From Campylobacter porcelli (lineage in GTDB: Bacteria; Campylobacterota; Campylobacteria; Campylobacterales; Campylobacteraceae), in NCBI RefSeq assembly GCF_002139855.1, contig NZ_CP018789.1:992001-1056000 (forward strand): 64,000 nt of DNA, read 5' to 3'. Below the pieces are notes generated by a model. It made no database searches. It was not told the origin of the DNA and saw nothing but the letters and a program-made list of their open reading frames with translations. The translations under genes were made by a program, and so were the position numbers. This document shows positions 45,858 to 58,631 of the stretch, in pieces. Position 1 is the first letter of the stretch; each line of letters begins with the position of its first letter.

Positions 45858-46445
45858 ATGAGTGGCAGAAAATTATGGCTTTATAATGGTTTTTTTACGC
45901 TTTTTTGTGTAGCGGTGGCACATTTTATCTTACAAAATTACCTTTATATGCGTCCTTGCGTTCAATGCGTGTATATAAGGTATTATATGATAATTTTAGG
46001 ATTTGCTTCTATATTAATATTGATATTTTATAGGCAAATTTGGATATTTATGGCTGGTTTTTTGCTATTTATATATGGCATAATTTGCGGAATTTTAGAG
46101 GCTTTAAAGCTAAATGCAATCCATAAAGCGATATTAAGCTCTAATCCATTTGGCGTAAAAGGCTGCCTTGATAAGCCAATATTTGAGCTAAATATAGCGT
46201 GGGATGAGATTTTGCCATCTATATTTAAAGCCACAGGTCAATGCGGACTAGATATGCCAGTAGTGCCGCTTGATGTTAAATTTGACCCAATTCAAGCATA
46301 TTTCATAGAGCTATATCAAGATGGCTGGTATCTCATACCGCCTTTAAAGCTAATTAATATGGCACAAATTTCAATCATTATATTTAGCATAGCTTTGATT
46401 TTGGGTTTGGTTTCATTAATATTAAGAGTAAAAGGTAGAAAATGA
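45858..46445 (+). CDS. Disulfide bond formation protein, DsbB/DsbI family
   Basis: The 195-residue inner-membrane protein has four hydrophobic helices and the redox pair CVQC near residues 34-37, with a second pair of cysteines in the periplasmic loop (GCLDKPIF...GQCGLD). DsbB/DsbI reoxidises periplasmic DsbA via quinones. It is coupled by a four-base overlap to the first dynamin-like gene. Confidence 0.88.
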   Translation: MSGRKLWLYNGFFTLFCVAVAHFILQNYLYMRPCVQCVYIRYYMIILGFASILILIFYRQIWIFMAGFLLFIYGIICGILEALKLNAIHKAILSSNPFGVKGCLDKPIFELNIAWDEILPSIFKATGQCGLDMPVVPLDVKFDPIQAYFIELYQDGWYLIPPLKLINMAQISIIIFSIALILGLVSLILRVKGRK

Positions 46446-48520
46446 TTAAGATATTAGAGCAAATTTGGGGGATCAAAACCCTATATGTCGATGAAAATCA
46501 TATAAGCAAATTCAGTAGTGATGAAGCGGCGATAATCCTTTGCATCACACCAAGAAATTATGATAGGCTAATTAGATTAGAGAGTTTAAGGGGGATTTTT
46601 GCAAGGGCGAATTTAAGTCTAAATGAGTATAGCGTCCAGCTTAGTCAAATTGGCATAATAAACGCTATAAAGGCCTTGCAAATAGATATAAACGGGGTTT
46701 TAAATGGATTAAATGAGATAGCTAAAAATGATATTATAGATTTTGCTGGCTACTCTTTGATAAGTGAGTTTATAAATAGCCTTGAGCTTGATTTTACTAA
46801 AGTAGATAGCGCCAAAGCTCAGCCATTTCATAAAAATCTCCACACGCTAAATGAAATTCATCAAATTTTAAGCGAATTTGAATTTAAAGAAGTTAGCCAA
46901 AGACTGATTAACGCCTACGATAGTGCTAATAACTCTAAATTTAAAATAGCAGTTACTGGGGTGATAAATGCTGGAAAAAGTAGCACTTTAAACGCACTGA
47001 TGAATCAAAATATTTTGGGCGCTTCAAATATCCCAGAAACAGCGAATTTAAGCATTCTAACCTATAGCAAAGATGAATTTGCTAAAGTCTGCTTCTGGTC
47101 GCCTGAAGAGCTAAAATCGATGAATTTAGAGCCAAAAGAGATGAAAGATAAAGTAGTCCCAATAAGTGAGCTAAAACTATACACAACCGCTGCTAATGAG
47201 ATTAGCAAAATGGTAAAAGAGGTGATTTTAGGTATTAAGCTAGATATTTTAAAAGATGGTATTGATATAGTAGATACTCCAGGGCTTGATGATGCTGTGG
47301 TATTGCGTGAGATTTTAACGGCAAATTATATGAGCCAAAGCGACTTTACACTTCATCTGATGAATGCTAGTCAAAGTGCTACTAAAAAAGATATGGCATT
47401 TATCGTAAATACCTTAAAAAATGGCAAAAGTGGCGGACTTATAATCGCTCTTACGCACATTGATAAGCTTAGTCAAAATGATATAAAAGAGGTGCTAAAC
47501 TACACAAAAAATAGTATTAAAACCGAGCTTAGTGAGTGCGGATTTGATGAGAGTTTAGCTGATGAGACCAAATTTTTTACCATTTCAGCAATTAAAAATA
47601 TCGGAATTGATGAGCTAAGAAACTATCTTTATGAGAGCTTTTTTGGCTCAAATTCTAAAAAAGCAACACTAATTATAGACAACTATAAAAAAGAGCTTTT
47701 AAATATCACGCAATTAATATCTGATGACCTAAAAGCACAAAAAACAGCCCTAACATCAGATACCGCCACAGCTAAAGAGCTTGCTAAATCACTCCAAAAT
47801 GAGATAGATGAGATAAGCAATGCCGCAAATAGCATAAATAGCGAACTTGAAAATCTGCTTAAAAGATTGAATTATGATAATGAAAATAGCAACGCAACCC
47901 TAAAATCCATAAGCGCTAAAATCAAAGATAGAGTAATCAGCGATGTAAAATACGCCACTGATAAAAAAATCAAGCTTGATATTATGCGACTTGGGGTGAT
48001 TATAGAGAGTGGATTTAATGACTCTTTTATAGATTTTTTCAGAGATTTTAAGCAGCAAATTAGCAAAGATATCGACTCAGCTAGTAAAATTTTAGAGTTA
48101 AAGCTAGGGGCAAAAAATGCGAATTTAACCTTGCCAGATATTAGAGCTTATATAGATGAGCATCTACCCAAAATCAACTACGAAATCCTAAATAGCGATG
48201 TCAATAAGGCTATAAAAAATCAGAAAAATATAGAGTTATTAGGGGCGAATTTGACTACAATTTTTGATGATTTTATAATAAATTTAAACTTAACCAATAA
48301 GCTTAGCACCCTAGCTCTTTCTTGTACGAATGAGTTTATAACCAGCATAAAATCAGAGCTAAACTCCATGCAAGAGCATCTAAAAACCAAAGAAGCACAA
48401 ATAAATACAATAGCCAAATCAAATTTTGATAATATCAAGGACAAAGAGAGATTAATAGCTAATATTGATAGCAAAATAGCACAATGCCAAGAGATTAAAA
48501 ATAGGATAGAACTATGCTAA
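46442..48520 (+). CDS. Bacterial dynamin-like GTPase (DLP1 type)
   Basis: The 692-residue protein has a GTPase domain with P-loop GVINAGKSST near residue 173-182, switch II DIVDTPGLDDA and LTHIDKL (G4-like), followed by long helical stalk regions with coiled coil. It matches the first of the paired dynamin-like proteins of Campylobacter (C. jejuni Cj0411/Cj0412). The pair forms a heterotetramer that tethers and remodels membranes. The stop overlaps the next gene start. Confidence 0.9.
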   Translation: MIKILEQIWGIKTLYVDENHISKFSSDEAAIILCITPRNYDRLIRLESLRGIFARANLSLNEYSVQLSQIGIINAIKALQIDINGVLNGLNEIAKNDIIDFAGYSLISEFINSLELDFTKVDSAKAQPFHKNLHTLNEIHQILSEFEFKEVSQRLINAYDSANNSKFKIAVTGVINAGKSSTLNALMNQNILGASNIPETANLSILTYSKDEFAKVCFWSPEELKSMNLEPKEMKDKVVPISELKLYTTAANEISKMVKEVILGIKLDILKDGIDIVDTPGLDDAVVLREILTANYMSQSDFTLHLMNASQSATKKDMAFIVNTLKNGKSGGLIIALTHIDKLSQNDIKEVLNYTKNSIKTELSECGFDESLADETKFFTISAIKNIGIDELRNYLYESFFGSNSKKATLIIDNYKKELLNITQLISDDLKAQKTALTSDTATAKELAKSLQNEIDEISNAANSINSELENLLKRLNYDNENSNATLKSISAKIKDRVISDVKYATDKKIKLDIMRLGVIIESGFNDSFIDFFRDFKQQISKDIDSASKILELKLGAKNANLTLPDIRAYIDEHLPKINYEILNSDVNKAIKNQKNIELLGANLTTIFDDFIINLNLTNKLSTLALSCTNEFITSIKSELNSMQEHLKTKEAQINTIAKSNFDNIKDKERLIANIDSKIAQCQEIKNRIELC

Positions 48521-50316
48521 AAGAGTTTATAAAAGAGTATCAAAGAGTATATCAAATCAGCTTTGATGATGGATTTTTAGGAGAATTTGAAAGATTTTGC
48601 GCTCTTATTAGTGAGCCTAAATTTCACCCAAGCAAGGAGCTAATTGATAGATTAAATTTCCTTAGCCTGCTAAGCCACGAGCCACCACTTGTAGCCATTG
48701 TCGGGCAGTTTAGCAGTGGGAAATCTAGCTTTTTAAATGCACTTTTGGGATTAGATATTTTGCCTACTGGAGTTGTGCCAGTAACGGCTAAGCCCACATT
48801 TATCAAATACGCACCAAATTATATGCTAAAAATCCTTCACAACGATGGAAGAGATGAGTATAAAAATATTGATGAGCTTAGCGCCTTTGTAGATCAACGC
48901 CACGCCTTAAAAGATGTCAAAAATCTCACAATCTACGCTCCAAATGAACTACTTAAAAAGATTAGTTTCATCGATACTCCAGGGCTAAACTCTAGAAGCG
49001 ACGCTGATACTAATGAAACAAAAATGATACTAAATGAAGCTGTGGCACTCATCTGGATTAGCCTAATTGACAACGCCGCTAGAAAGAGCGAACTTGATGA
49101 GCTAAATCTTATTCCAAATAGCATTAAGCAAAACGCAATTGCCCTATTAAACCAAAAAGATAAATTAAATGGCGAGGAGATAGATAGGGTTTTAACCCAC
49201 GCCAACACCACATATAGCAAGCATTTTAGCCAAGTGGTAGCCATCTCAGCTAAAATGCAAAGAGAAAATAGAAGTGATAGTGGCTTTGAGGCGGTATTTG
49301 AATTTTTAGATAAAATTGCTAATACAAAAGAGAATTTTATAAAATCCGCTTGTAAAGACATATTAATCTCATCGCAAAATCAAAATTTAAGCTTTATAAA
49401 TATTTTAGATGAAATTTCAGATATTTTTACTAAATTTCAAGATAGAACAAATCTTAAATTCAGCGAGCTAAATGATAGTTATAATGCCAAATTTGAGATA
49501 TTTTTTGAAGCAATCAAGCAAAATGCAGCCTTAATAGCAAACGAAATTAATAGTGCTTTAAAAAATGAAAAATCGGCCTATTATAAAGAAAAAAGCGGAT
49601 TTTTAAACAAAAATAGCTTTGAAAAGATAGAGTATGAAAGAGTCTCTCTAGATAGAGATGAAGTCTTAGGCAAACTCATCTATAATGATGATAAATTCGC
49701 TAAGATATTTAAGAAATTTAAACGAGATTTAAGCGAATTTGAAAATGAAATTTTAGCCGATTTACAATCAATCTTTGATGAGTTAAAAGAGCTTACACTT
49801 CGCTATAAAGCCAAATATGAGAGCATTAGAAAATCAGACCCACTCCACTCTGATCTACTTTTTGCCGATATTCGTAAATTCTCAAGCGAAGTCTATTCTC
49901 TATTTTTAAGCCATATTGAGACGCTATTTTTGGCTAAATTTGCGAATTTAGGGCTATTTTTTGAAAGAGTTTTTATAAAAGTTAGCGCTAACTACCAAAA
50001 CGCAATTAGACTAAGCGTGAATTTCATAGCTCAAAAGTGCGAAAAAAGCAGCCAAGACTATGAGTCTGACCCCGTTGCTTTTAGCTTGTATTATCCAAGA
50101 TTAAGTGAGATAAATGAGAGAATTTTAAATGAGCTTAGCTATTATGAATTTGAGAGTGAATTTAGCGGTAATGCGACATTTATTACTAAATTTATCAACT
50201 CTCTCAAATCGCAAATGGCCGATCTAATGAGTAAAAACCAAAACTATATAAACTCACTAAAATCAAAATATCAAAGCGATCTAAATGAGTTAGAAAATAG
50301 TTTGCCTTGGTCTTAG
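48514..50316 (+). CDS. Bacterial dynamin-like GTPase (DLP2 type)
   Basis: The 600-residue partner has the P-loop VGQFSSGKSSFLNALLG near residues 62-78, then TGVVPVTAKPT and FIDTPGLNSRSD, and helical C-terminal membrane/stalk regions. GTPase domains of the two genes share the layout but little identity elsewhere, as in C. jejuni. It overlaps the upstream gene by seven bases. Ends at a convergent terminator with the next gene. Confidence 0.9.
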   Translation: MLKEFIKEYQRVYQISFDDGFLGEFERFCALISEPKFHPSKELIDRLNFLSLLSHEPPLVAIVGQFSSGKSSFLNALLGLDILPTGVVPVTAKPTFIKYAPNYMLKILHNDGRDEYKNIDELSAFVDQRHALKDVKNLTIYAPNELLKKISFIDTPGLNSRSDADTNETKMILNEAVALIWISLIDNAARKSELDELNLIPNSIKQNAIALLNQKDKLNGEEIDRVLTHANTTYSKHFSQVVAISAKMQRENRSDSGFEAVFEFLDKIANTKENFIKSACKDILISSQNQNLSFINILDEISDIFTKFQDRTNLKFSELNDSYNAKFEIFFEAIKQNAALIANEINSALKNEKSAYYKEKSGFLNKNSFEKIEYERVSLDRDEVLGKLIYNDDKFAKIFKKFKRDLSEFENEILADLQSIFDELKELTLRYKAKYESIRKSDPLHSDLLFADIRKFSSEVYSLFLSHIETLFLAKFANLGLFFERVFIKVSANYQNAIRLSVNFIAQKCEKSSQDYESDPVAFSLYYPRLSEINERILNELSYYEFESEFSGNATFITKFINSLKSQMADLMSKNQNYINSLKSKYQSDLNELENSLPWS

Positions 50317-52540: not shown

Positions 52541-53569
52541 ATGCTAAAGAAAATAAAAGCGATTGATTTTTTTTGTGGTGCTGGAGGTATGACAAAAGGC
52601 TTGCAGTTAGCTGGTATTGATGTTTTTGCTGGAGTTGATTATGATAAGACATGTAAAAATACATATCAAAAAAATACACATGCACTTTTTATAAACAAAA
52701 GCATTATTGATATAAAAGCAAAAGAAATCAAACAAATTTTTAAGGAATATGTGTTAAAAAATGAATACACAATGATAACTGGTTGTGCTCCTTGTCAGCC
52801 ATATAGTAGCATAAATACTAGAAAAAAGATTGATGATCATAGAAAAACCTTATTAGATGAGTTTGCTAGAATCATAAAAGGAGTTAAACCTCACTTTGTT
52901 TTAATGGAAAATGTAAGTGGGCTAACGGAGAAAAATGAATATTTTTCAAAATTTATTAATATGCTTTCAACTAATAATTATAAATACGAATATAAAATTT
53001 TAAATGCTAAAGATTATGGTGTGGCACAAAACAGAAAAAGGCTTTTTTTAATAGCAACAAGACTAAAAAATAATAAACTATCTTTTTTAAAAATAAAAAA
53101 AACTAAAGAAATTACTTTAAAAGATGTTATATATAATCTAGAACCAATAACCCACGAAACCCCATCAGCAATAGATTATTTACACAGGTCTTTAAGGCTA
53201 AATGATATAAATTTAAAAAGAATACAAGCTACTAGGCACAATGGTGGAACAAGAGCTGGGTGGCATGATTCTTTAAGGGCAAAAAGTCATGCAAAAAAAA
53301 ATGTGTTTAAAGACAACTACGGAAGATTATCATGGGATAAACCGAGTTCGACAATAACAACAAAATTTAATCAATATTATAGTGGTAGATTTGGACATCC
53401 AGAGCAAGACAGGGCTTTATCTTTAAGAGAGGGTGCATTAATTCAATCTTTCCCAGAAGATTATATGTTTTTTGGAACAGACTACCAAATAGCTAGACAA
53501 ATAGGTAATGCCGTTCCAGTTAATTTATCAAAAGCTATTGGAGAAATTTTTATTAACTCTCTTGATTAG
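52541..53569 (+). CDS. DNA cytosine-5 methyltransferase
   Basis: The 342-residue enzyme has the standard m5C motifs in order: I (IDFFCGAGGMTKGLQLAG), IV with the catalytic Cys (ITGCAPCQPYSS), VI (LMENVSGL), VIII (AQNRKRLFLIATR), a target-recognition region (HNGGTRAGWHDSLRAKS), IX (RDxxLSLREGALIQSFP-like) and X (QIGNAVPVNLSKAIGE). It appears complete. It converges with and overlaps by 17 bases the GHKL ATPase/nuclease gene. Together they probably form a restriction-modification or related defence pair within a decayed island. Recognition sequence unknown. Confidence 0.92.
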   Translation: MLKKIKAIDFFCGAGGMTKGLQLAGIDVFAGVDYDKTCKNTYQKNTHALFINKSIIDIKAKEIKQIFKEYVLKNEYTMITGCAPCQPYSSINTRKKIDDHRKTLLDEFARIIKGVKPHFVLMENVSGLTEKNEYFSKFINMLSTNNYKYEYKILNAKDYGVAQNRKRLFLIATRLKNNKLSFLKIKKTKEITLKDVIYNLEPITHETPSAIDYLHRSLRLNDINLKRIQATRHNGGTRAGWHDSLRAKSHAKKNVFKDNYGRLSWDKPSSTITTKFNQYYSGRFGHPEQDRALSLREGALIQSFPEDYMFFGTDYQIARQIGNAVPVNLSKAIGEIFINSLD

Positions 53570-55472
53570 AAATATTTATGCTGGTTAAATTATATGTTTT
53601 TTCGTAAGTGTTAATAAAGTCCCTATGATATTGTTCTGCTTGACTCAACATATCCTCATAACTCATAAAAAACATATCGCTTTTTTCAAGCGTTTCTAGT
53701 CTTGTTCTTACCATACTATCGTTTTTTAGTTTTTTTCCTATTATATATGCTTTAACTTTTCTATATTTACTTCTATCTGAATTATTTTCATTTATGTGGG
53801 CTTTTATAAATTCATAATATTCTTGCATTTGCTTTAATTCTTCTATTCCTATAATTTTTTGGCTTCTTTTTATTTCTAAAACATACAAAGTATCACCAAA
53901 ACCTTTACACAAGAAATCAAGTCTACGGTCTTGAATATTTTCTAGTGCTGAGTCACAAAAATGTTTTATTAAAATTTGTCTATATCCCTGTTCATCTTCA
54001 AAGCTAGAAAGCCTAGGCTCTAGTATCCATGGAAATTGATTTAAGAAACCATGCATAGAATCCACTTTTCCAACTTCCTTGGTGTCTGCTTTTATCATTT
54101 CTTTAAATTTGTTTATTGTTTCTATTCTACCTATTGCCAATCTATAATATTCTTTTGCTTCAATAATTTGCCAATCTTGCATTAGTTTAATGATGGCATC
54201 AGTATTTTCATTTCCACTTATTTCACTTGCATATTTTCTAAAAATATCAAATTCAAAAGCACCTTTTACATATTCCAATAAGCTTTTGATTCTACCTTCT
54301 TCCAAATCTGATGATATCACAATATCTGTAATTTTTTTAGCCAAAATCTTATCTTCTTGACTATTAAATTTTCTTTCATACCAAGCAGTATCAATTTGAT
54401 GTTTTTCTCTGAGTATTTTTTCTTTTGCTTCTCGTCTTTTCTCTCTCCAATCGGCACCAATCTTTTTTATTATTTCGGATAATACCTCTCGCAATTCTAC
54501 CAAATCATCATTTTCCCAAATAAGAGAATTTCTAGCAGTAGAGATATTGTCATCTTCAATACTATCGTCTAAATAATCTACATTAATATCGCCACTCATA
54601 TATGAAAAAGCATGTGAATTACTTAACTTAACATTGTAAAATTCCCTATTATTTGCCAACTTGCCTCTTGCATACAATGCTATACCTTTTATATCGTCGC
54701 TAAGTGTATTATTTGTTGTTATTATACTACCATTTATATTCTTTTCTCTTATAAAGTCTATTATATTTTGATCTATTTTTAAAGTTTTTAAATCATTTGG
54801 AATATGCCATTCAAATTGCATATCTTTTAATAACATTTTTTTTCTTGCGTCAGCATCCAAAACTTCTTCTTGATCTTGTCCAATGATTTTACATATAAAA
54901 TTATCATCAAATAAATTTAGTCTAGATAATATAGAATCAGATAGATTTTGAATATTAATTGATGTTTTTCTAGTAAGCTGTCTTAATATTATCTTTGTAT
55001 AACTATTCTCTTTTGTTTCTACATTATCTTTTTTTGGTGGCAACTCTAATAACTCATCAGCACTCTTGCTCATTAATTCATCATAATTAATAACAAAGCT
55101 GTTTATTTTGCCATCTTTACAACTTTCTACTTCCACCTCTTTGCAAATGCCAAACATAGAAAGTTTGCCTATACCTTTTTTGCCAGTAACTTTTCTTTTA
55201 TATTTTTGAGTTACTTTTTCATTATCGGTTTCTCTGCGATTTCTACCAATTTGCAAAAAATTGTTATTTAACTCATCCATACTCATACCACAACCATTGT
55301 CAAAGATTTCTATTGTTTTTTCTCTAGTATTTTGACTCATTGAAATCTTGACTTCTGTGGCATCCGCATCATAAGAATTTGTAATCAATTCTGATAGAAC
55401 TGGCGGTAAAGTACTATACATGCTTAGACCTAAATGCTTAATTGTAGCGGGGCTGAATTTTAATTGAAACAT
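53553..55472 (-). CDS. GHKL ATPase with C-terminal PD-(D/E)XK (Shedu-like) nuclease
   Basis: The start is placed at ATG 55472 (639 residues) with GGAG nine bases upstream; the open frame reaches 55487 via TTG. The N-terminus is a GHKL ATPase: N-box VLSELITNSYDADATEVKI, G1 FDNGCGMSMDEL, G2 GKKGIGKLSMFGI, like MutL, Hsp90 and MORC proteins. The last 170 residues contain LNQFPWILEPRLSSFEDEQ, RRLDFLCKGFGDTLYVLEIKRS (D and ExK spacing of a PD-(D/E)XK nuclease, reminiscent of the Shedu/DUF4263 fold). GHKL proteins with nuclease domains beside methyltransferases are described in prokaryotic R-M systems. It is the likely restriction partner of the convergent methyltransferase. Confidence 0.8.
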   Translation of the reverse strand: MFQLKFSPATIKHLGLSMYSTLPPVLSELITNSYDADATEVKISMSQNTREKTIEIFDNGCGMSMDELNNNFLQIGRNRRETDNEKVTQKYKRKVTGKKGIGKLSMFGICKEVEVESCKDGKINSFVINYDELMSKSADELLELPPKKDNVETKENSYTKIILRQLTRKTSINIQNLSDSILSRLNLFDDNFICKIIGQDQEEVLDADARKKMLLKDMQFEWHIPNDLKTLKIDQNIIDFIREKNINGSIITTNNTLSDDIKGIALYARGKLANNREFYNVKLSNSHAFSYMSGDINVDYLDDSIEDDNISTARNSLIWENDDLVELREVLSEIIKKIGADWREKRREAKEKILREKHQIDTAWYERKFNSQEDKILAKKITDIVISSDLEEGRIKSLLEYVKGAFEFDIFRKYASEISGNENTDAIIKLMQDWQIIEAKEYYRLAIGRIETINKFKEMIKADTKEVGKVDSMHGFLNQFPWILEPRLSSFEDEQGYRQILIKHFCDSALENIQDRRLDFLCKGFGDTLYVLEIKRSQKIIGIEELKQMQEYYEFIKAHINENNSDRSKYRKVKAYIIGKKLKNDSMVRTRLETLEKSDMFFMSYEDMLSQAEQYHRDFINTYEKTYNLTSINISNQES

Positions 55473-56129
55473 TATAAAAAACTCCAAATGTCAAGTAAAA
55501 TGTATTATATAATAATAGCAATTAAATTACATTTAAAATGATGATAAAAAGTTTTTATATTTTAATTAATCTCATTTTAAATACAAGAAAATAGCTAAAA
55601 AGATTTTCAGTCTTTATGCTTTAAATTGCATCTGTTTTTCATGTTCGTCACACCCTTTACTCATATTATTTGATCTGCTCAACATAATCTTTTAATATTT
55701 GCTAATAACTTAAACCATTCTACTTGTTAAGATATTATAACAATGTATATTGTTGGTATACCACTAACGTTTGCGCTAGTTAAAAATATCGCAATAGCAA
55801 TGTTTATTTAAATAGCAGTTTTTTATCATCTTTGTTTTAACAGTATATTCGTTCTTTATAAAACTAGCTCCTATGTCTTGTTATCTATAAATTTGCTTAA
55901 TTTTTTAGCTATTTTTTCTATGTTTAATAGTAATTTGTGGATTATGTTTAGTTAAAAAATTTATAAAACTCCATTTAATGTTTTATATATCTCTTTGATC
56001 GCTAAAACCACTTAAATATTCTTGAATATGCAAATTATCTACTCTGTCAAATTTATCTAAAGCTTTTTACGACGCTACGCTTTTGGGCTAGTAATAAATT
56101 TAATAATTGAAGTTATTCCTTTTAATTTA

Positions 56130-56410
56130 TATTTCTCTGCCTTGGTCTTGATTTTTATTTAGAATTTGTTTTTTATTTCATCTAGTATTTTGCTAATTTT
56201 TTAATAAAATTTAGGATATGCATGTTTAAAATTTGGCGTATATTTTTCAATATCGCTCATCATTTTGCTTAATTTTTCATACCTATTTACATCTAGTCTG
56301 TTTTTAATTTTCTTTTCTTATGTGGTTTTTAACTTTGTATAGCTTACATGTTGTATCTCTTTGCGTTGCGTATATACTTCTTTAACTAAATCAATCACAG
56401 CTTCTCTAAA
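56130..56410 (-). pseudogene. Dead gene remnant, mobilisation-like
   Basis: A minus-strand reading frame gives REAVIDLVKEVYTQRKEI, a stop, then NRLDVNRYEKLSKMMSDIEKY and further residues, a stop, and KISKILDEIKNKF. Only two stops interrupt some 85 codons of otherwise sensible helical protein. It resembles C-terminal parts of plasmid mobilisation proteins in charge pattern, but I cannot assign it firmly. Confidence 0.4.
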
Positions 56411-56499
56411 AATTTAGACTATCTAAAGTAAGTTCAAGTTTTTCTTTGCATTTGTAATCTTTGGCTTAGCTTTCGTTATTGTCCCTGTAGTATTATAAT

Positions 56500-56828
56500 T
56501 TCTAAGCTTATATCAATCTATTAAAGTGATGTGAGACACTATTAATTCCATCACTATTCATTAAATTATTGATTGATTTGTAAAAATTTATCTCGAGTCG
56601 TGATTGCTCATCTTTTAGCTATTCTAACTCTTTTTCATATTGAAGTTTAAACCAATCGGCTCGTTTGTTTCAATCGTTTTGATCGGCTAAGTTGCTTTCT
56701 TTCTCTTTTTTTCTTTTTTTCGTTAATGTTGCTTTTCTTTAAATTTTCATTTTTTAACTCTTTTATGTTTTTTTATATTCTTTTGATTTTAAATTATTAA
56801 GTTTCTCTTATATTAATTTGTTACTCAT
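56500..56828 (-). pseudogene. Dead coiled-coil gene remnant
   Basis: From an ATG at 56828 the minus strand reads MSNKLI-stop-EKLNNLKSKEYKKT, and after a frame change WFKLQYEKELE-stop-LKDEQSRLEINFYKSI, then NNLMNSDGINSVSHHFNRLI-stop. Lys/Glu-rich heptads suggest a coiled-coil accessory protein of a mobile element. Several stops and shifts make it non-functional. Confidence 0.4.
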
Positions 56829-57459: not shown

Positions 57460-58480
57460 ATAACCATGAAAATTTACCTAAAAATAGAAATATATTCAAA
57501 AAGCAGATTTTATACCAACCATCAAAAAGATAACGAGTGAATTCGTCGCCATACTGGTCTTAAAAAGTCAGCTCTTGCATTTGATTTATGTGTAAAAATT
57601 ACGGTAGATTTATTGACCCTAAAACTAAACTTGAACAAGCTAGGCGTAATTATTATGATCTTGAGAATAATCATATCGATCGCCAATTAAAAAGAAGGAA
57701 TAAAACTTAAAATCTGTAAAAAATAATAGCAAATTTAGTTTTGCTAGAGTAATTGATAAATTACTTACAAAAGTCGTTTTTAAAAAGTAAAACTATTAAG
57801 CTTTATAATATATCATGAGCAATGCTGTAAGTGATTTTTTAGAGTATTAATATATTTATTATCTGCCTAATTTTCAAAGATATCATAATGTTTAGTTTGT
57901 ACGGTTTTGCAAGTATAAGAACTTAAAAGATAGTTCTATTAATGGCTATTATTTCTTTTTTGATACTATTTCTCTATACATTATGTAATGATTTAATTTC
58001 AAAAAATCTGTTTTGTACACCAAATTTAAGCATCAATACAATACTAGCGAGAATAAAAAATTTACGCCGTTTAGCCTTGAATAGATTCTAGAGCTTATAA
58101 AAATACAGATAATGGATAGCTTCACTTATTTTTGATTGTTGTTTTCTTGGCTAGGGCTGTTAATATTTTAGCTATTACATTTGGCAATTTCGATTAAAAA
58201 ACAAATTCACATTAATAAAACACTTTCTTGCGTATGTATTGTAAATTCATCAAAACAAAAACAAGCAATCTCAAAATTGATATGCTTAACATTATATGTA
58301 AAGAGCTTATAAGGTTAGATATTAGCGATAAAAACGCGAGAATTTTTAAGCATTCTCGTTCAATGATAAAGATAAATTTAATGATTTGCAAGAAAAATTA
58401 GCCTACAGAACACCGTAGACTTTACAATAACTAGAATTAATTCGCATCGACAATATTAAGTTATAGAAAAAAGACTTATA
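57460..58480 (+). pseudogene. Tyrosine recombinase/integrase, heavily degraded
   Basis: Pieces of a tyrosine integrase appear in order on the + strand but in changing frames: KKFTPFSLE near 58060, LIVVFLARAVNILAITFGNFD near 58130-58195, KKQIHINKTLS near 58200-58235, then LKIDMLNIICKELIRLDI near 58275-58330 and IFKHSRSMIKI. Intact family members show FTPFSLEEI, FFTGARTGE, IxINKTLS and IDML in this order. At least five breaks are needed to rebuild it. It identifies the region as an old integrative element. Start and end are approximate. Confidence 0.7.
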
Positions 58481-58631
58481 TAGTAGATTTTAAAATGATA
58501 AAACATAAAAATTTAAATAAAACTTGTCGCTCATACGTAAAATATCCACTCAAAAAAAATCAAACAAATGATGAATGTGTAGATACCAGTTGGTGATATT
58601 ATTAATATTCCTAGCATAAAATCTAATTCTA

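Follow-up and report, generated by a model that had tools for sequence, protein, structure and literature searches.

A convergent cytosine methyltransferase and GHKL ATPase-nuclease of Campylobacter porcelli as a probable restriction-modification pair of the paraMORC3 / BbrUII-HgiDII kind

Organisation of the locus

The window, a stretch of 64,000 nucleotides from Campylobacter porcelli (C1:992001-1056000 of a 1.64 Mb genome in two contigs), carries a pair of convergent genes. The first (M, 52541-53569, forward strand) encodes an m5C DNA methyltransferase (MTase) of 342 amino acids and ends with TAG, and the second (R, 53553-55472, reverse strand) encodes a GHKL ATPase-nuclease of the paraMORC3 / BbrUII-HgiDII type, 639 amino acids long from its ATG, with the stop codon TAA. 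The genes overlap tail to tail by 17 bases (53553-53569). The ATG at 55472 was preferred to the TTG at 55487 as the start of R, since MFQLKFSP is also the beginning of the relative L057. Both reading frames are full-length and uninterrupted, and the description in the earlier note of an intact m5C MTase and an intact GHKL ATPase, converging with a 17-base overlap, was verified for frames, motifs and overlap alike.

The M protein contains all core motifs of its family (FCGAGG, GCAPCQPYS, ENV, QNRKR and QIGNAV) and matches the Pfam family DNA_methylase with an E-value of 3e-70. It forms one clade with seven MTases from other genomes, each 67-72% identical to it. The convergent 3' ends of the two genes overlap or almost meet in seven relatives too, with either type of partner. 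Among named matches, the one nearest to the R gene is from a Campylobacter sp. MAG.

Decayed carrier and selection on the R gene

On both flanks of the pair the G + C content falls to 17-27%, and long open reading frames are absent. A decayed tyrosine integrase, broken over several frames, was located at 57471-58557 (forward strand) by tblastn with the intact integrase of the relatives L175 and L176, which belongs to Pfam Phage_integrase. A second decayed gene of the same element, also with a broken frame, lies at 56180-56711 (reverse strand), and its intact homologue occurs in the integrase region of L175. In the relatives the integrase and the second gene are intact together, and a gene close to them has a weak match to type IV secretion. 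The M/R cassette is most likely the cargo of a dead integrative element. The earlier statement that everything else around the pair had decayed is correct locally and does not extend to the left of 50.9 kb, where the genes of the window are intact. Two adjacent dynamin-like GTPase genes (Dynamin_N, E-values 6e-24 and 7e-27) were also observed at 46442-50316, beside a DsbB-like gene.

The same R gene is carried by the MAG RUI582, with 98.6% identity over the 221 residues present there. The DNA similarity to the window stops about 110 bases upstream of R, and the gene beside R in RUI582 is one that we take to be TerC-like. Codons 1-221 of R differ between the window and RUI582 by 17 synonymous and 3 non-synonymous changes, giving a dN/dS of 0.037; M and the remainder of R can be compared only with relatives that are saturated at synonymous sites. 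For these first 221 codons of R, the purifying selection agrees with the suggestion that selection keeps the pair.

Domain structure of the R protein

The protein consists of a MORC-like GHKL and S5 ATPase module, delimited with VIA-align and motifs (residues 5-349; 54426-55460, reverse strand), a helical linker (residues 350-462; 54087-54425, reverse strand; block pLDDT about 69-88 in the AF2 model) and a PD-(D/E)XK nuclease domain resembling Shedu (SduA_C) and carrying E466, D519, E533 and K535 (residues 463-626; 53595-54086, reverse strand). The AF2 model was based on 47 homologues and reached a mean pLDDT of 84.1; a single-sequence model (pLDDT 34.6) was discarded.

The best structural neighbour of residues 5-346 was mouse MORC3 (VIA-align, Z 24.4 over 300 residues, rmsd 3.1), and MORC2, SMCHD1 and Hsp90 were further neighbours of the ATPase half. 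The GHKL motifs E28/N32, D58-x-G60-x-G62 and G97-K-K-G-I-G-K103 are complete and invariant, or almost so, in the 47 homologues, and the match to Pfam HATPase_c_3 has an E-value of 9e-25. The N-terminal GHKL domain with every ATP-binding motif and the S5 domain that define paraMORC3 proteins at this end are both found in R. The conserved motifs and the top structural match to MORC3 agree with the MORC/MutL-like nature assigned to the ATPase earlier.

In the C-terminal part, no variation occurs among the 47 homologues at E466, D519 and E533 and almost none at K535, and residues 473-604 of the AF2 model show the helix and strand order of a PD-(D/E)XK core, that is, a predicted restriction-fold domain with the E-D-ExK residues of paraMORC3. 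A profile of 12 C-termini, compared by hhalign with a genuine SduA (L200; PADLOC SduA, E 1e-32), gave a probability of 94.3% and an E-value of 9.9e-8, with D519, E533 and K535 in register. A second SduA was matched at 83% (E 9e-6), and an unrelated negative control at 0.1%. The only match in a PDB sequence search up to an E-value of 10 was the Shedu effector 8ps4, which at 0.16 is below significance. Pfam SduA_C did not match R directly at E ≤ 1, nor any protein of the host genome. A full-length homologue from the same genus (G015) scored 24.8-29.1 bits against SduA_C, for which the cut-off is 27, and had a weak PADLOC SduA match. Foldseek and VIA-align searches with the whole model listed matches only in the ATPase half, so the link to Shedu comes from the profiles and the secondary structure of the model. 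On these sequence grounds the C-terminus is classified as a nuclease domain homologous to the SduA core with aligned catalytic residues, and the nuclease fold proposed from the letters alone is supported by both profile comparison and structure prediction.

Pairing of R homologues with methyltransferases

Over residues 2-629, R matches positions 1-652 of the 659 of the NCBIfam model NF050001, 'BbrUII/HgiDII family restriction enzyme', with an E-value of 5e-88. Its score is 296 bits, and the curated equivalog cut-off of 550 is not reached; R is therefore not filed as an equivalog, and neither the activity nor the GTCGAC specificity of the family is transferred to it. PADLOC labels R as a type II REase.

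Relatives were sought with R alone in viral contigs, plasmids, phages and genomes of the phylum and reduced to 70% identity; in the viral contigs, the best 80 of 141 relatives from a search with the DNase-type alignment were used. No relatives were returned when viral contigs were scanned with individual proteins or the alignment of HEPN types. An m5C MTase lay within 200 bp of the R homologue in 60 of the 70 non-redundant loci, the viral part of which comes from the best 80 of 141. Among the viral contigs of that same set, the distance was at most 200 bases in 38 of 45 and at most 420 in 41 of 45; among plasmids, phages and genomes it was at most 200 bp in 22 of 25. The genes are arranged in tandem (in both orders), convergently and, once, divergently. 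An MTase within reach was missing in four viral loci (again from the best 80 of 141) and in three others, one of which lies at the end of a contig. The copy in the E. coli phage PhiR44_1 (L045), annotated as ParaMORC3 beside Dcm, scores 751 bits in NF050001.

Chance neighbourhood of M and R was rejected, as the pairing is almost constant; homologues without an adjacent MTase, which would have told against the proposed pairing, are the minority. An REase gene linked to a DNA methyltransferase gene is the arrangement of a type II restriction-modification (R-M) system, and the adjacent m5C MTase gives R the R-M neighbourhood of paraMORC3. In a record of Neisseria gonorrhoeae (L044:4092-5843), the homologous pair seems broken, with the MTase in two open reading frames and a short GHKL frame.

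Two effector types around one methyltransferase lineage

The eight closest MTases are 67-84% identical to one another (61-82% in the variable, target-recognition region), and each of the eight has a GHKL gene tail to tail with it; these GHKL genes are of two kinds. The partner is of the DNase type (GHKL-PD(D/E)XK) in four loci, namely the window, G072, G275 and the viral contig L089, and of a HEPN-like type in the other four, G138, G204, G392 and the viral contig L127. The HEPN-like partners have 542-547 amino acids, lack PD-(D/E)XK and carry an invariant RN-x3-H-T near the C-terminus. The two types are 29-36% identical to each other, over the ATPase half only, and 56-67% identical within each type.

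The tree of GHKL proteins separates two clean clades, with support of 100 and 99. A single clade was rejected by AU tests both for the DNase-partnered MTases (p 0.0006) and for the HEPN-partnered ones (p 0.0086), and in a tree of 67 MTases the HEPN label changes at least seven times, two of the nine HEPN labels being assigned by motif only. Since the GHKL proteins are split in two clades and the MTases of neither class form one, the conserved MTase seems to have had its effector gene exchanged. A swap of the C-terminal domain within one GHKL gene was considered and rejected: the N-terminal halves differ as well (29-36% identity), so the whole gene would have been exchanged and not the C-terminal domain alone.

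The motif RN-x3-H is typical of HEPN RNases (PMC3710099). One HEPN-like member matched Pfam Ymh with an E-value of 0.01, and profile-profile comparison of the HEPN-like C-termini with firm Ymh-type partners gave a weak match (8%, E 0.004) with the motif in register. In the more distant loci L094 and L112, the GHKL partners of such MTases match TIGR02391/Ymh with E-values of 7e-33 and 1e-16. The HEPN-like C-terminal domain was found in 4 of the 397 genomes of the phylum, and no relatives of it were found on plasmids.

GHKL genes with a HEPN-like C-terminus and convergent MTases about 70% identical to M were observed at L062:6018-7658, L063:6005-7648, L065:5581-7209 and L127:3968-5602. A third arrangement was seen on plasmids of Rhodococcus, Klebsiella and Phaeobacter (L080:566-3373, L082:3995-6880, L085:2156-5062 and L086:2146-5032), where relatives of the MTase stand beside DUF262 and MAE_28990-type HEPN genes and GHKL is absent. 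Other plasmid relatives of M adjoin other effectors.

Word avoidance in the host genome

Words were counted in 459 kb of the own genome, made up of a 395 kb sample (L178-L197) and the window. GTCGAC was found 0 times against 3.1 expected, too rare in this AT-rich genome for avoidance to be judged. The word ACGT is strongly avoided in the same 459 kb (16 found, 389 expected), as are CGCG, GTAC and GATATC. Two or more m5C MTases besides M are encoded in the host genome, and the word avoidance is not attributable to the M/R pair. Two adjacent m5C MTases in tandem, followed by a protein of 491 amino acids, are encoded elsewhere in this genome at L177:2434-6019 (G000:C1:1100933-1104518); that protein has no Pfam or NCBIfam match and is possibly a restriction enzyme.

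Discussion

The earlier note held that the combination of ATPase, Shedu-like nuclease and m5C MTase still needed description. This view is not upheld, as the combination has already been described and the window pair is one more member. Iyer, Abhiman and Aravind (2008, PMC2292703) defined paraMORC3 as GHKL and S5 joined to a restriction-fold nuclease, encoded beside cytosine methylases in R-M neighbourhoods, and reported stand-alone genes as well. R shares the GHKL and S5 domains, the C-terminal restriction fold with E-D-ExK and the cytosine methylase alongside; the window pair shows no essential difference and is a convergent two-gene cassette lacking a helicase or Vsr. The model NF050001 is named after the characterised enzymes BbrUII and HgiDII, and R resembles this family in being a single polypeptide that leads from a GHKL N-terminus to a nuclease C-terminus, with an m5C partner MTase. 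It differs in its score, already given, and in its identity of 24-27% to the above-cut-off member from PhiR44_1. M.HgiDII is cited in PMC5867850 as an experimentally characterised m5C MTase with the site GTCGAC. The third description is that of VcSduA (Shedu type I-D), a GHKL-Shedu protein tested in 2025; according to PMC12137116, it restricts phage and loses this protection when the ATPase glutamate or the nuclease lysine is mutated. VcSduA shares with R the GHKL N-terminus and the Shedu PD-(D/E)XK C-terminus, and its E27 and K557 are apparently equivalent, by motif, to E28 and K535 of R. In the available text of that paper it is described as acting alone, whereas R has an attached methyltransferase. 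GHKL-HEPN (Ymh) paraMORC proteins in R-M loci were noted by Anantharaman in 2013 (PMC3710099), and the sister cassettes of the window MTase seem to belong to the same type, whereas R itself ends in a DNase and not in HEPN.

The pair is very probably a type II-like R-M system of the paraMORC3 / BbrUII-HgiDII kind, a reading that is well supported because the homologues nearly always adjoin an m5C methyltransferase. We infer that M would mark a cytosine within a short target site of the host chromosome and thereby protect the host. R would dimerise through its MORC-like GHKL/S5 module and bind DNA as an ATP-controlled clamp, and unmodified sites on incoming DNA, such as that of phage, would license cutting by the Shedu-type PD-(D/E)XK domain of R. 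The pair would have arrived as cargo of the integrative element and been retained when the element decayed.

R could instead be a direct anti-phage nuclease like VcSduA, its GHKL domain sensing the ends or structure of phage DNA and the MTase being a mere neighbour or a separate solitary enzyme. The Shedu-like C-terminus of R and the layout shared with VcSduA, which acts with no MTase described in the available text of PMC12137116, speak for this, but we consider it unlikely given that the MTase keeps its place within 200 bp, in several orientations, in most of the 70 loci, and that the full-length match of R is to restriction enzymes. It is more improbable still that the pair is a dying remnant, intact only as the last part to decay and devoid of present function. 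The carrier around it is indeed broken, but both frames are full-length with all catalytic residues, and synonymous changes far outnumber non-synonymous ones against a near relative in which R stands in another setting, next to the presumed TerC-like gene.

Beyond the R-M reading, the MTase may be the stable core of interchangeable guard systems, in which GHKL effectors, either DNases or HEPN-like RNases, read the missing mark and the window holds the DNase version. This extends the R-M explanation and does not exclude it, and we regard its chances as even. It is favoured by the equal division of eight closely similar MTases between the two partner types and by the clean GHKL clades set against the rejected MTase clades and the repeated changes of the HEPN label. 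Against it, the HEPN assignment is weak in the clade of the window (motif, Ymh E-value and profile-profile match), the firm TIGR02391/Ymh matches are confined to more distant loci, and a common site of the eight MTases is predicted from their similarity. Tentatively, and with rather less confidence, one methylation specificity might be guarded by swappable DNase and RNase GHKL effectors, a missing mark leading to DNA restriction or to RNA-cleaving abortive defence, with GHKL as the shared reader and the C-terminus as the executioner.

A literature search that covered few subscription journals found no paper describing GHKL partners of the DNase and the HEPN type that are exchanged beside MTases of a single lineage. 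The exchange is new as far as this literature shows and is a family-level observation worth following. Nor did that literature say, for any GHKL restriction enzyme, whether the GHKL/S5 part reads the methylated site. The window pair is a divergent, compact member of a known restriction family, which it connects with the Shedu nuclease core. The sister cassettes, with nearly the same MTase and either a DNase or a HEPN-like effector, amount to a natural swap experiment; as the two types of R share the GHKL/S5 part only, comparing them would show whether it is this part that reads the methylated site.
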